Positions 34,045-38,472 of a stretch of 64,000 nucleotides of DNA are shown here, piece after piece. Numbering within the stretch: position 1 is the first letter of the stretch; each line of letters begins with the position of its first letter. The DNA comes from Bacillota bacterium (lineage in GTDB: Bacteria; Bacillota_C; Negativicutes; JAEYSJ01): assembly GCA_023434855.1 (NCBI GenBank), contig JAEYSJ010000096.1, positions 14,749 through 78,748 of the forward strand. The letters are read 5' to 3'. The notes under the pieces were generated by a model. The model made no database searches. It saw nothing but the letters and a program-made list of their open reading frames with translations, and was not told the origin of the DNA. The translations under genes and the position numbers were made by a program.

Positions 34045-34341
34045 TTACCACCACCAGTGGTGGCAGGAATGATGATGATGGAATGGATATGGAAAAGGGA
34101 ATGGTATGGGATATGGAACGGGAAATGCTACCGGAAAACCGGTTACCGGAAAACCGGCTACCGGAAAATCAGTTGCTGGAAAACCAGCTACTGGAAATCC
34201 AGCTACTGGAAATCCATTTACCGATGTCACCGATGCCACTGCGTTGGGGCTGGTTGCGGTTCCCAGCGTGCCGGTAGGCTGGCCCATCGGATGGCATGAA
34301 TTTTGTTGTTGCTGGGGTTGCCGCCAGTATCCATAGTACAT
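34045..34341 (-). CDS. Low-complexity GFPVA-repeat protein, spore-coat-like
   Basis: A 98-residue protein with a strong AGGAGGTAATAAA site before its ATG. It begins MYYGYWRQPQQQQ, then has six tandem five-residue units of the form Gly-Phe-Pro-Val-Ala (about residues 43-72), then an aromatic/proline run (FPVPYPIPFPFPYPF) and a His/Trp-rich end (HHHHSCHHWWW). The repeats are visible in the DNA as 15-base units. Such composition is typical of structural coat or exosporium proteins, but no family was recognised. It is divergent from the YcaO gene and shares its 260-base upstream region. The start MYY is shared with the Cys-repeat protein at 36495. Confidence 0.7.
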   Translation of the reverse strand: MYYGYWRQPQQQQNSCHPMGQPTGTLGTATSPNAVASVTSVNGFPVAGFPVAGFPATDFPVAGFPVTGFPVAFPVPYPIPFPFPYPFHHHHSCHHWWW

Positions 34342-34598
34342 TTTATTACCTCCTCGACAATATACTTTGTATATTTTATGTCAATTCTCCCAATAATGTT
34401 CCTTCAAAATAGGATGTGGCAGGAATATAGCATGTCATCATTTCTGGTGGTACCGGAATTTTTTCGGGTGAAAAAGCCTGTAGTCTCCAGAACTCGTTCA
34501 TTCTGCAATCACAATCCATGATTTAGGGTCATATATTAAAAAAGAATCGGAATATTTAACATGACAATTCCCTTTAGTCATGGTGCGAGGTGTAATGC

Positions 34599-36416
34599 AT
34601 GGACTCAGCAGATATGAAGTACAAGGACGAAACGCCCATCAAAACGATTAACCAGGTAAGGAATATTCTTGGTGAGATGGGCCTTCTCACGGTGGAAACC
34701 TCCTGGAAAAATACGGTGAATGGTTTTTACTCGGTGAGTGTGATGATCGACAATACGGTTCTGATGACCAATGGAAAAGGAACTTCGGTTGAATTCGCCC
34801 TAGCCAGCGCATATGGCGAGATGATGGAACGTCTGCAAAATTTTTGCCATTATAGACTAAGTCTGGATTTGGATTCCAAGGTTATGGAATACCTTGGCTT
34901 TTATTATGCCCCGGACGAGAAACCAATGAGTACCGACGAGTTCCTTGTCAGTGGCGAAGACTGGATTAAAACCCAATTGTCCAGAATGAACCCTACGCTG
35001 GACAAACGGGAACTTCTGGCAAAATGGCAGACGGTGTCTTATGAGAAAGTGCCCGCCGATTTTATCGCTCTACCTTATTGCAATCTTAACAGCAAGCGTA
35101 TTTCTCATATCCCGATAAAAATGGTCTCGCTGATGTACATGTCGAATGGCATGTGTGCCGGCAATTCGCCCGAAGAGGCTTTGGTTCAGGGAATATCCGA
35201 GATCATGGAACGCTACGCCAACAAGAGAATCCTTAGGGAGAGAATAGTACCGCCCACTATCCCGCGGCGTTATATCGCAAAGTTTCCCAAGATTGAGGCG
35301 ATGATTGCCGAACTCGAAAAAAGCGGCAATTTCGAAGTTGTCGTCAAAGACTGCTCGCTGGGACAAAAGTTGCCAGTTGTAGGCGTTATCCTGGTTAATA
35401 AGAATGACCAGAATTATTTTGTAAAATTTGGTGCTCATCCTAAATTTGAAATAGCGGCAGAGCGGACATTGACCGAACTTCTTCAGGGGCAGGACATCAA
35501 ATTGATGATGGGAGTCAGGGAGTTTTGCGTCAGGAGTACGACGGACGATCCGGAAAACTACAGGAGCATACTGGTGACCGGCTCAGGGCTTTATCCCACG
35601 GAATTTTTCAGCCGAAACTTCAGTTATCAGTTCAACGAATTCGAAGAAACTGCGATAACTACCAACAAGGAAATGCTGGCTTATATGGTCGACCTGCTGG
35701 CTCAAATAGGCTACGAGACATATGTACGTGATGTTTCGTTCCTGGGCTTTCCGAGCTTTCATGTTATTGTTCCCGGCTTGAGCGAAGTCTCGGGATTTGA
35801 TGAGTTAAACCCCATTAGCGACTATGCTGCCTTCAACACCTTCAAAAGACTGGTTAAAAAAATCGACTGCCTCGATGACGCCGGTGCCGCCACGATCATC
35901 AGTTTTTTGCAAAACATGAATTATACTCCTGACGCTACAGTCATGGATCTGATCAATCTACCGGTACGTAGTAAAGCGTTTCCCTGGTATTATGCTAATG
36001 TTGACTTATTTGTCACTGCGCTAAACTACTGGAAAGGCGACATCGACAAAGCCTATGAGACCTTTACCAAATTTCTAAGTTATGCCCAGCGAGCCAATCC
36101 ACAGCGCCAAGTGTTAACGTATTACAAGTGCGTTCGGGATTTTCTGGCGAGCAGGCTTGAAGGACTTGCGGAAAATGAGGCGATAAGCACACTGAGTATG
36201 TTTTACCCGCAGGAGGTAATCCGGGAGGTCGTGATTGAATTCAGCTCGCCGGCGGAAATTATCAGTTACCAAGGACAATTAAATTGCTTCGATTGCGAGA
36301 AATGCCAGTTCTTAAAACAGTGCCTTTATCCGCCGATGGAAGGGATTTACAAAATACTTAAGGAGCGGTATGCCTCCGGCGGAATAGATCAGAACAATCT
36401 CAAGGAGCTGGTATAA
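34599..36416 (+). CDS. YcaO-domain protein
   Basis: A 605-residue ATP-dependent YcaO enzyme. Family members phosphorylate a backbone amide so that a Cys/Ser/Thr side chain (azoline), sulfide (thioamide) or amine can attack. The ATP-binding landmarks are LMTNGKGTSVEFALASAYGE, then MERLQ, SNGMCAGNSPEEALVQGISE, then MERYANKRI, and FGAHPKFEIAAERTLTELLQ. The layout and C-terminal helical (TPR-like) part follow E. coli YcaO rather than the short RiPP cyclodehydratases. The end has an added Cys cluster CFDCEKCQFLKQC that could bind zinc or an iron-sulfur centre. GCGAGGTG precedes the ATG. No E1-like, RRE or dehydrogenase partner is adjacent, but two odd repeat proteins flank it. Confidence 0.88.
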   Translation: MDSADMKYKDETPIKTINQVRNILGEMGLLTVETSWKNTVNGFYSVSVMIDNTVLMTNGKGTSVEFALASAYGEMMERLQNFCHYRLSLDLDSKVMEYLGFYYAPDEKPMSTDEFLVSGEDWIKTQLSRMNPTLDKRELLAKWQTVSYEKVPADFIALPYCNLNSKRISHIPIKMVSLMYMSNGMCAGNSPEEALVQGISEIMERYANKRILRERIVPPTIPRRYIAKFPKIEAMIAELEKSGNFEVVVKDCSLGQKLPVVGVILVNKNDQNYFVKFGAHPKFEIAAERTLTELLQGQDIKLMMGVREFCVRSTTDDPENYRSILVTGSGLYPTEFFSRNFSYQFNEFEETAITTNKEMLAYMVDLLAQIGYETYVRDVSFLGFPSFHVIVPGLSEVSGFDELNPISDYAAFNTFKRLVKKIDCLDDAGAATIISFLQNMNYTPDATVMDLINLPVRSKAFPWYYANVDLFVTALNYWKGDIDKAYETFTKFLSYAQRANPQRQVLTYYKCVRDFLASRLEGLAENEAISTLSMFYPQEVIREVVIEFSSPAEIISYQGQLNCFDCEKCQFLKQCLYPPMEGIYKILKERYASGGIDQNNLKELV

Positions 36417-36420
36417 TACA

Positions 36421-36454
36421 GTCAAAGCCAAAGCCGAAAGGCTTTGGCTTTGAC
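36421..36454. terminator. Terminator of the YcaO gene
   Basis: Perfect 15-bp stem (36421-36435 and 36440-36454) with a GAAA loop between the convergent YcaO and Cys-repeat genes. No strong T run follows. Confidence 0.6.
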
Positions 36455-36494
36455 CATTTCCACTCATAAAAGCCGCATGTTACTGACTATTACG

Positions 36495-36821
36495 TTACCG
36501 CCTGCACTTCATACAATGGCAGGAGTGGCAGGAATGGCAGCTCTTAAACGGGAAGCAGGACTGGCAACTACCCATCGGGAAGCAGGAATGACAGCTCTTA
36601 CATGGGAAGCAAGACTGACAGCTACCCATCGGGAAGCAAGACTGACAGCTACCCATCGGGAAGCAGGACTGGCAGCTACCCATCGAGAAGCAAGACTCGC
36701 AGCTACCCATCGGGAAGCAGGAATGGCAGCTACCCATTGAGAAACAGGACTGGCAACTACTCATCGAGTAGCGGCCACTATACATAATGTCGTCATCGTC
36801 ATCGTCATAGTCATAATACAT
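36495..36821 (-). CDS. Cys-Ser repeat protein, candidate YcaO substrate
   Basis: A 108-residue protein in which 22 residues are Cys. After an acidic head (MYYDYDDDDDD, then IMYSGRYSMSS) come eight 9-residue units of consensus Cys-Gln/His/Glu-Ser-Cys-Phe-Pro/Ser-Met-Gly-Ser. A tail of CHSCHSCHCMKC, then RR, follows. The DNA repeats are 27 bases long. A TGGAGATGA site precedes the ATG at 36821; 15 upstream open codons lack one. No family was recognised. The acidic head plus a Cys/Ser-rich core resembles a leader and core of thiazole/oxazole-modified peptides, and a YcaO gene ends 79 bases away in the convergent direction. A metal-binding or spore-coat role is the main alternative. Confidence 0.7.
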   Translation of the reverse strand: MYYDYDDDDDDIMYSGRYSMSSCQSCFSMGSCHSCFPMGSCESCFSMGSCQSCFPMGSCQSCFPMGSCQSCFPCKSCHSCFPMGSCQSCFPFKSCHSCHSCHCMKCRR

Positions 36822-37098
36822 TAAACAATCATCTCCATATATAATTTGTAGGTAACCTATTAACATAATATGACGACGCCGTGTAAGATGTTACAACGTA
36901 AAGGGTATTTTTTCTTAATATCATTATAAATGGCAGCTATGATATCAGACACACCGGATATTTGGGACATTTTAGAAAATACAACAATATAATATAGCGG
37001 AAATATCTTATGAAAGCTAAACAAAAGATAAACGAGAAAGTCAATTGTTTCATAGAATACCCAAATGCTAAATAAGATTAAGATTAGGAGAGATATTG

Positions 37099-38472
37099 AT
37101 GGAACGTAATATACAGCTAACCGGAAGGGTCATCTTCAGGGGAGAACTAGGGTATGAACAGGCGCGTAAAAATTGGAACCCATATGTAGATACATTTCCT
37201 TTCGTATTCGTCTTCGCGCAAAGCACAGAGGATGTAAAAAAAGCCATAAAATGGGCACGTGAGAACTGTGTACCCATTCGAATTCGAAGCGGACGTCATG
37301 CCCTGGACAAAAATCTTTCAGAGGTAAGAGATGGAGTTGTTATTGATGTAAGCAATATGAATAAGGCCTGGCTAAATAGTAATGAAAGAGTGGCTATCGT
37401 CCAGACTGGTTTCCATGTAGGACATCTCGTAAAGTGGTTAGCGCAGAAAGGCTTCATGGCCCCTTTTGGAGACAGTCCGACCGTTGGGATCGGCGGAATT
37501 ACAATGGGGGGAGGAATTGGGCTGCTGCTGCGGTCAGTTGGTCTTGTCAGCGACAATCTAGTTGGACTGGAAATGGTTGACTACAACGGATGCGTTATCG
37601 AAGCCGATGAATACAATAATTCGGATCTTTTATGGGCTTCGCGCGGTGGTGGCGGTGGTAATTTCGGGGTTAATACTGAATACAAATTCAAGGTGCGTTG
37701 TGCTCCTTCCCAAGCGACGGTATTTGAAATTATTTGGCCATGGAACCAACTGGAAATAGTTTTCGAGGCATGGCAATGCTGGGCTCCTTTTGTTGATGAA
37801 AGATTAGGCTCTTATTTGGAGATTTTTAGTAAAGTAAGTGGCTTAGTCCATACAAAAGGACTATTTCTCGGTTCAAAAAGAGAGCTGATTTGCTTGTTGG
37901 AACCTTTAATGAGCGCAGGCACTCCAACCAAGGTGGATATCAAAACATTATCCTATCCGGATGTTGTTGAATATTTAATACCAGATGAACCAATTCCGGG
38001 AAGAGCTGATCAGAAGAATAAATTTTCATCAGCTTGGGCACATGATCTATTGCCGTGTGAGGCGATTAAGATTATGCGTCGCTTCCTGGAAGAAGCCACC
38101 GGAACAGAATCTAATTTCTTTTTTCTGAACTGGGGTGGCGCTGCGAGCCGTATCTCCCCCGAGGAGACTGCATTCTTTTGGCGATATCCCAAATTTTATT
38201 TAGAATGGAATGCAACTTGGACTAAAGACTCTGATGCCCAGAGAAACATTACTTCGGTTGAAAGAATCCGCTGGGAGTTGAGGCCTTTTGTTGAGGGGTC
38301 CTATATTAATGTTCCGGATCAGTATATTGAGGACTTCGGTCCGGCGTATTATGGAACAAACTACGGCAGACTTCGAGAAGTGAAAGAAAAGTATGATCCT
38401 GAGAACGTATTTAATTTTCCACAAAGTATACCTCCTGCCTGTTGTCGACCAGAGAAACCTGACCGAAAATAG
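37099..38472 (+). CDS. FAD-linked oxidoreductase, berberine-bridge (BBE) type
   Basis: A 457-residue flavoenzyme of the PCMH/VAO superfamily. The FAD domain has RIRSGRHAL (the His is a likely site of covalent FAD attachment), SPTVGIGGITMGGGIGLLLR and VNTEYKFKV. The end YYGTNYGRLREVKEKYDPEN, then FNFPQSI, is the BBE domain. Related bacterial enzymes oxidise sugars or secondary metabolites. There is no signal peptide. The TTG at 37096 precedes the ATG at 37099, which has AGGAGAGAT in front of it. The gene is alone, with debris after it. Confidence 0.88.
   Translation: MERNIQLTGRVIFRGELGYEQARKNWNPYVDTFPFVFVFAQSTEDVKKAIKWARENCVPIRIRSGRHALDKNLSEVRDGVVIDVSNMNKAWLNSNERVAIVQTGFHVGHLVKWLAQKGFMAPFGDSPTVGIGGITMGGGIGLLLRSVGLVSDNLVGLEMVDYNGCVIEADEYNNSDLLWASRGGGGGNFGVNTEYKFKVRCAPSQATVFEIIWPWNQLEIVFEAWQCWAPFVDERLGSYLEIFSKVSGLVHTKGLFLGSKRELICLLEPLMSAGTPTKVDIKTLSYPDVVEYLIPDEPIPGRADQKNKFSSAWAHDLLPCEAIKIMRRFLEEATGTESNFFFLNWGGAASRISPEETAFFWRYPKFYLEWNATWTKDSDAQRNITSVERIRWELRPFVEGSYINVPDQYIEDFGPAYYGTNYGRLREVKEKYDPENVFNFPQSIPPACCRPEKPDRK

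Follow-up and report, generated by a model that had tools for sequence, protein, structure and literature searches.

What does a YcaO enzyme act on when its gene lies between genes for two small repeat proteins that both start with Met-Tyr-Tyr (MYY)? The question is raised by a locus on contig JAEYSJ010000096.1 of a Bacillota bacterium, within a stretch of 64,000 nucleotides (nt) that was analysed as a whole and is called the window here. An initial annotation had singled out this arrangement, which we confirm in the window, and had proposed that the enzyme cyclises Cys and Ser residues of one neighbour. Comparison with other genomes suggests that the pairing of this YcaO with a repeat protein carrying Cys or Met at nearly every third residue (a sulfur ladder) is conserved in spore-forming anaerobes, where the two genes look as if they serve the chemical modification of a spore protein. 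Of the earlier proposal, the conserved YcaO/repeat pair and the link to spores are supported. We found no support for counting the second neighbour, a GFPVA-repeat protein, as a further component, nor for cyclisation of Cys/Ser as the reaction common to all members. The features of the locus are as follows.

34599..36416, + strand: YcaO-domain enzyme, 605 residues, E. coli type (YcaO domain and C-terminal helical region), from Pfam/NCBIfam and structure
36285..36323, + strand: C-terminal Cys cluster of the YcaO (residues 563-575, CxxCxxCx5C), a possible metal or Fe-S site
36495..36821, - strand: sulfur-ladder repeat protein, 108 residues, acidic head followed by Cys/Met at every third residue; proposed substrate
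36865..36891, - strand: sigma-K-like promoter of the ladder gene, AC-N17-CATATTAT, with its end 43 bp upstream of the ATG
34511..34538, + strand: sigma-K-like promoter of the YcaO gene, AC-N17-CATATATTA
34045..34341, - strand: GFPVA-repeat protein, 98 residues, MYY start; adjoins the YcaO gene and has a sigma-K-like promoter, without being a conserved component
34372..34399, - strand: sigma-K-like promoter of the GFPVA gene, AC-N17-CATAAAATA

A repeat protein with a three-residue period

The ladder gene lies tail-to-tail with the YcaO gene, 78 bp downstream of it, and the GFPVA gene lies upstream in divergent orientation with 257 bp between. The ladder protein had been described as 22 Cys in 108 residues arranged in eight CxSCFPMGS units. 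The Cys count and the eight nine-residue units hold; the exact unit occurs in only four of the eight, and the pattern is CxSCF[PS][MCF][GK]S. Behind the acidic head (MYYDYDDDDDD) the slots run C..C..M, and 28 of the 31 non-initiator Cys/Met residues fall in one phase of three. The true period of the protein is three residues, filled by Cys or Met, a regularity that is hidden when the sequence is read in CxSC units. Of the 969 intervals from one Cys/Met residue to the next in 23 ladder proteins, 659 are exactly 3 (136 are of 1 and 124 of 2), and the slot is occupied by Met 595 times and by Cys 265 times. The residue before the slot is Ser, Gly, Pro, Ala or Thr in 675 of 860 cases, and the residue after it is frequently Gln, Lys, His, Asp, Ser or Asn. 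Sporomusaceae ladders are Cys/Met mixtures, many with an acidic head; Clostridia ladders are mostly of Met type, with triplets such as SMQ, AMN and GMQ.

A ladder of this kind could be a freely drifting low-complexity tandem repeat that sits beside the YcaO by inheritance only. Repeat number and repeat unit do vary widely (units of 9, 18, 27, 36, 45 nt and more), as drift would have it. Units of different length nevertheless keep the Cys/Met period of three, tandem periods are solely multiples of 9 nt in 22 of 28 ladder genes (the window gene, with periods of 6, 9 and 27 nt, is among the six exceptions), and the promoter is often kept. Together with the rarity of Met ladders elsewhere, given below, these observations make drift very improbable.

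The YcaO/ladder pairing in other genomes

A contig scan with an alignment of 22 YcaO sequences yielded 35 loci. In these, as in the window, each open reading frame (ORF) was given a score for stretches in which every third residue is Cys or Met. All scores of at least 6 were found within about 570 bp of the YcaO gene, except in L031, where the distance is 3 kb; 11 of the 35 loci gave no ladder match by score (L003, L020, L021, L027-L030, L032-L035). In genome searches, YcaO matches at E<=1e-100 were present in 17 of 300 genomes from the class of a Sporomusa, 7 of 249 from an order of Clostridia, 3 of 8 in one genus and 5 of 391 from the class of a Clostridium. These searches added six ladder loci (L038, L046, L047, L051, L057, L060), a case at a contig end (L040) and distant YcaOs that have no ladder (L052, L053, L063, L064, L066-L068). 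Loci representing the same place or an identical protein were counted once, for which L036, L037, L039, L041-L045, L048-L050, L054-L056, L058, L059, L061, L062 and L065 were dropped.

In a tree of 52 YcaOs, from which L032 was omitted because its aligned YcaO stretch is only 95 residues long, a 32-row group, drawn open and with weak support (81/79), holds all 30 ladder loci and two rows labelled contig end. The 30 ladder loci comprise 28 complete ORFs, one with masked bases (L011) and one cut by a contig end (L019). In Pelosinus propionicus (L003) the C-terminus of a ladder is visible at the contig edge, so that a ladder stands beside the YcaO in 31 of the 32 members; in L040 (1-240), a transposase-like fragment, judged by eye, occupies the ladder's place directly downstream of the YcaO. 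Thus the absence of a conserved association, which the initial annotation had named as fatal to its idea, is not what we found: a small conserved protein adjoins the putative modifying enzyme, as in ribosomally synthesized and post-translationally modified peptide (RiPP) systems, in nearly all members of this weakly supported group. Met ladders occur in several of its branches. The ladder gene is convergent and downstream of the YcaO in most loci and upstream in L022, L024 and L025.

Neighbouring genes were compared with the same 35 loci by tblastn, using 13 window genes other than the YcaO. The ladder recurs in seven loci at E<=1e-4 (the L022 match lies on the strand opposite its ladder gene). 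None of the 12 further genes recurs at close identity; an ABC transporter has matches of 25-29% identity in four loci, and two other genes have one match each. Because the two-gene linkage persists while the other compared neighbours change, the simplest account is that YcaO and ladder are enzyme and substrate, which we infer to be probable.

Whether ladders are exclusive to YcaO loci was examined for Met ladders with a profile at E<=1e-8, which matched in 2 of the 249 and 5 of the 391 genomes. Four of the seven matches lie beside a YcaO, two are in genomes with no YcaO hit (G776, and G311 at a contig end) and one is false (G904). The YcaO-adjacent matches are circular, because the query alignment A4 holds them or identical rows: it contains both hits from the 249 genomes and one from the 391 genomes, and the second of the latter, L089, is identical in protein to one of its rows. 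What informs is therefore only how rare other Met-ladder matches are, and this rarity argues against drift; since the profile misses known members at this threshold (G013 and others), absence of a match is weakly informative. Homologue searches were empty, presumably owing to low complexity: of 108 candidates for the window ladder protein none reached E<=0.01, and of 4250 for the ladder alignment A3 none reached E<=0.001. No description of the YcaO/ladder pairing was found in one open-access literature library.

A YlbF/YmcA-family gene adjoins the YcaO in eight loci, with PF06133 confirmed for L007 and L017, and could possibly be a third partner of the system. Its positions are:

L006 9652-9954; L007 9575-9907; L017 9634-9972; L018 12324-12623: beside the YcaO
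L020 9650-9955; L021 9305-9634; L024 6147-6458; L060 1144-1464: beside the YcaO
L092 2016-2351: similar-looking gene beside a Met ladder without a YcaO

Putative sporulation signals at the locus

Late-sporulation genes are read from sigma-K promoters, whose consensus resembles that of sigma-E sites. We searched for AC-N16/17-CATANNNT within 150 bp upstream of start codons, leaving out L019 and the six later ladder loci and taking in the weak cases L028 and L031. Such a site precedes 17 of 25 repeat genes compared with 14 of 475 other ORFs, as would be expected of coat protein genes (Fisher p 1.4e-17; loci that are related are not independent). It also precedes 6 of 30 YcaO genes (p 0.0006), and relatives of the ladder gene have a similar site at a similar distance. 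The initial annotation had the GFPVA and YcaO genes sharing a promoter region; instead of a single promoter, the YcaO, ladder and GFPVA genes of the window each have their own AC-N17-CATANNNT site. Those of the YcaO and GFPVA genes are of the strict form (final A); the two strands of the 64-kb window together contain six such strict sites. A strict match lies upstream of the YcaO in 5 of the 35 loci (L001, L002, L003, L013, L016).

The sporulation protein SpoIVA gives a second line of evidence. It is encoded in 51 of the 300 class members and in 17 of the 17 that have a YcaO-profile match (hypergeometric 6.5e-15, a value confounded by common descent); among these 17, G152 carries distant ladder-less YcaOs only. 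In a second set, SpoIVA is present in 29 of 29 YcaO-positive genomes, and also in 5 of 10 YcaO-negative ones. The YcaO thus occurred only in spore-formers among the YcaO-positive genomes tested. Promoters and SpoIVA together bear out the suggested spore link, and it is likely that the ladder protein is located in the spore coat.

The GFPVA protein did not prove to be part of the system: it has no relative in the 35 YcaO loci, and 11 related genomes gave no more than two fragmentary matches, interrupted by stop codons and with E above 0.001. A FAD-binding/berberine-bridge-type (BBE) oxidase gene (37096-38472, + strand) adjoins the ladder region and has a strict sigma-K-like site at 37032; its product is reminiscent of the coat protein CotQ of B. 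subtilis. Upstream of the YcaO, tiny proteins with LLFFFLLLVVLF cores are encoded in L018 (9643-9762) and L032 (9388-9504 and 9725-9835), which we take to resemble small sporulation proteins.

The YcaO enzyme and its candidate chemistry

The window YcaO belongs to the YcaO superfamily (PF02624, 189.8 bits against a gathering cut-off of 25.7). Its assignment to the E. coli type is supported: the nearest solved structure is E. coli YcaO (EcYcaO) both by sequence (4q84-4q86) and by fold, where an AlphaFold2 model (pLDDT 87.8) matched 4q86 best (TM score 0.73-0.77 over chains). In an alignment of 60 sequences, E77, N189, E193, E201, E204, R205, R289 and E293 are invariant and E74 is conserved in at least 90%; the window enzyme has all the residues expected of the ATP/Mg site. 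E204 aligns with EcYcaO E202, Ala substitution of which leaves thioamidation of the ribosomal protein uL16 incomplete (PMC13063428).

The additional C-terminal Cys cluster noted earlier is present and largely invariant among relatives. All four residues of C563-x2-C566-x2-C569-x5-C575 are invariant in 22 sequences, the window included, and in the 60 sequences three are invariant with C569 at 90% or more; the cluster is absent from three Pseudomonadota YcaOs examined. It does not mark ladder-linked YcaOs, since it is also found in the ladder-less distant YcaOs L030, L033, L063 and L066-L068 and is altered in the ladder members L009, L016, L026 and L060. The Tepidibacter YcaOs (L020, L021) have neither the cluster nor an adjacent ladder; a Met-rich acidic-tailed protein is encoded elsewhere in the L021 genome (L076 1477-1839).

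The natural substrate of E. coli-type YcaOs was considered poorly defined in the initial annotation. This no longer applies, as EcYcaO is described as thioamidating Met82 of uL16 with ATP, Mg and sulfide (PMC13063428). The window enzyme might likewise act on another protein, such as uL16 in the mother cell, with the ladder as an unmodified coat protein that shares only timing and place. That its nearest characterised relative modifies uL16, that the G776 ladder exists without this YcaO and that the Tepidibacter YcaOs have no adjacent ladder would agree with this. Adjacency is nevertheless kept in 31 of 32 group members where the other compared window genes are not, and the YcaO is patchy (17/300, 7/249 and 5/391 genomes), as one would hardly expect of an enzyme whose target is a conserved ribosomal protein. 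The isoelectric point (pI) also differs: the window YcaO, at 5.12 (median of 120 relatives 5.43, range 4.75-8.66), lacks the very acidic character of the uL16-type enzyme, which has a pI of 4.4 in EcYcaO (PMC13063428) and of 4.5-4.6 in three Pseudomonadota proteins, at least one of them an OsmC-YcaO fusion. We regard a different target as unlikely. A few non-acidic members of the EcYcaO group lie in contexts suggesting RiPP biosynthesis (PMC13063428). The distant E. coli-type YcaOs of our comparison likewise stand in RiPP-like clusters, as judged by eye, and we count this also in favour of a YcaO acting on the ladder.

If YcaO and ladder are a pair, what would the reaction be? The sequence comparisons would be consistent with a YcaO and a gene-linked ladder substrate that the mother cell produces at a late stage of sporulation. 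Using ATP, the enzyme would activate amides in the ladder backbone, either at the sulfur residue of each [S/A/G/P]-[M/C]-x triplet or beside it, and the carbonyl oxygen would then most likely be replaced by sulfur, giving a thioamide, as EcYcaO does at uL16 Met82. This would yield a protein of the coat or exosporium that contains sulfur in every third side chain and in part of its backbone and could bind soft metals, quench oxidants or cross-link. That a YcaO active late in sporulation modifies the backbone of a sulfur-ladder coat protein at repeated positions, with thioamides as the likeliest product, has in our estimate an even chance of being correct; the thioamide taken by itself is put forward tentatively, at somewhat below even.

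The initial annotation had instead proposed that the YcaO cyclises ladder Cys (and Ser) to thiazolines and oxazolines at regular spacing. The window ladder would suit this reaction, with 46 Cys/Ser/Thr among its 108 residues; it and the Sporomusaceae ladders are rich in Cys and Ser, with a small residue usually before each Cys, and distant E. coli-type YcaOs sit, as judged by eye, in RiPP-like clusters, two of which (L034, L035) have a nitroreductase/McbC-like gene upstream, also identified by eye from translations. In Clostridia, by contrast, the slots are mostly Met and cyclisable Cys/Ser/Thr are scarce in some ladders: 8 of 170 residues in the C. uliginosum ladder L022 (54 Met, no Cys), 8 of 215 in L025 and 12 of 119 in L015. 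Because the slots outside the Sporomusaceae are filled mostly by Met, Cys cyclisation cannot be the shared chemistry, and Met ladders with few cyclisable residues require a reaction that does not use Cys. Further, the enzyme scores 62.7 bits against a cut-off of 219.25 for the SagD-type cyclodehydratase family TIGR03604, and no McbC-type dehydrogenase, E1-like or RiPP recognition element (RRE) protein was recognised among six window proteins scanned (the YcaO, the two repeat proteins and three neighbours). The adjoining FAD/BBE oxidase was considered as an azoline dehydrogenase and rejected, in spite of its strict sigma-K-like site, since it has no relative in the 35 loci. We regard the cyclisation reading as unlikely; azolines are possible in the Cys-rich Sporomusaceae forms. 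Since Cys and Met share slots and Met ladders occur in several branches, whatever reaction the ladders have in common should proceed without a Cys thiol, and among known YcaO reactions backbone thioamidation would fit best by analogy, being the reaction of the closest characterised relative, and at a Met.

Several observations weigh against thioamidation of the ladder by its YcaO. EcYcaO is reported to need folded uL16, leaving peptides of 11 and 21 residues unmodified (PMC13063428), and the ladder, of low complexity, is unlike this folded substrate. The uL16-M82A variant is still modified (PMC13063428), so that EcYcaO does not demand the Met side chain. The window YcaO is not a uL16 equivalog, because it scores 317 bits against the NF040716 equivalog cut-off of 700, and no TfuA or sulfur-carrier gene was recognised among the six proteins scanned. 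The next larger tree group (37 rows, support 98/97) contains five members without an adjacent ladder by score (L020, L021, L027, L028, L031), of which L028 has an adjoining Met-rich protein and L031 its Met ladder at 3 kb; L032 (46% identity) also has no ladder, and its YcaO frame looks interrupted. Met-ladder genes occur without a YcaO hit in G776 (L092), clearly, next to a YlbF-like gene, and at a contig end in G311 (L091). Finally, 8 of the 25 repeat genes have no promoter match.

Set beside known systems, the window YcaO resembles EcYcaO in fold, length and the ATP-site residue (E204/E202); it is about 25% identical, less acidic and has the C-terminal Cys cluster and, unlike the E. coli system, a gene-linked repeat partner and a sporulation-type promoter, with the NF040716 cut-off unreached. 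Thiazole/oxazole-modified microcin (TOMM), or azol(in)e, cyclodehydratases likewise combine a YcaO domain with a small gene-linked Cys/Ser protein, and differ in that the window YcaO scores far below the TIGR03604 cut-off, in E1/RRE and McbC-type partners, absent from the scanned window proteins, and in that Met replaces Cys in relatives of the ladder. The glycine-thioamidating YcaO of methanogens, which acts on MCR (TIGR03266; related structures 6pe3 and 6ci7), shares the domain and the modification of a protein backbone; the window YcaO reaches 52.6 bits against a cut-off of 365, the archaeal structures have about 360-385 residues, and in MCR a single residue of an enzyme is modified. His-Xaa-Ser repeat RiPP-like systems (HxsA, NF038313) place a triplet-repeat substrate beside modifying enzymes, which are radical SAM enzymes; the triplet differs from that of the ladder, and L025 scores 39.1 against the NF038313 cut-off of 55. 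Cys-rich coat and exosporium proteins of Bacillota are likewise made from late-sporulation type promoters. The ladder differs from them in its linked YcaO, and among seven ladder proteins scanned (the window protein and six relatives) the only Pfam/NCBIfam match over cut-off was to Collagen, for the GMQ forms L022 and L025.

Besides the thioamide of uL16, the authors of PMC13063428 know of just one that has been characterised in a protein, that of MCR. A YcaO with a gene-linked repeat partner in spore-formers would offer a directly testable third case in which gene order supplies the candidate substrate. The pair would connect RiPP-type backbone chemistry to spore architecture, would bear on why a sulfur residue, Cys or Met, recurs at every third position, and would yield a genetically encodable sulfur-rich polymer. 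In a bolder version, which we consider doubtful, sporulating Clostridia and Negativicutes would build a polythioamide, a sporulation-specific YcaO writing a thioamide at nearly every third residue of a coat ladder. The spore would then be surrounded by a gene-encoded polymer with sulfur in backbone and side chains that might sequester soft metals or absorb ultraviolet light; we know of no earlier case in which a structural protein is thioamidated at many backbone sites. The mass shift of a thioamide (+15.977 Da) almost equals that of Met oxidation (+15.995 Da) (PMC13063428). In ordinary proteomics of a Met-rich protein the one could be taken for the other, which is a reason why the modification could have been overlooked.

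Two further arrangements around distant E. coli-type YcaOs were seen by eye. In L030 (6589-11962) and in L052/L053, two such YcaOs are found with a gene resembling methyltransferases and with a short leader peptide of Nif11-like type, which may together form a RiPP cluster. In L029 (992-6091), from a Thermotoga metagenome-assembled genome, a radical-SAM-like gene, an E. coli-type YcaO, a 77-residue CLCGLCSGSGG peptide and an ABC transporter form a RiPP-like group.

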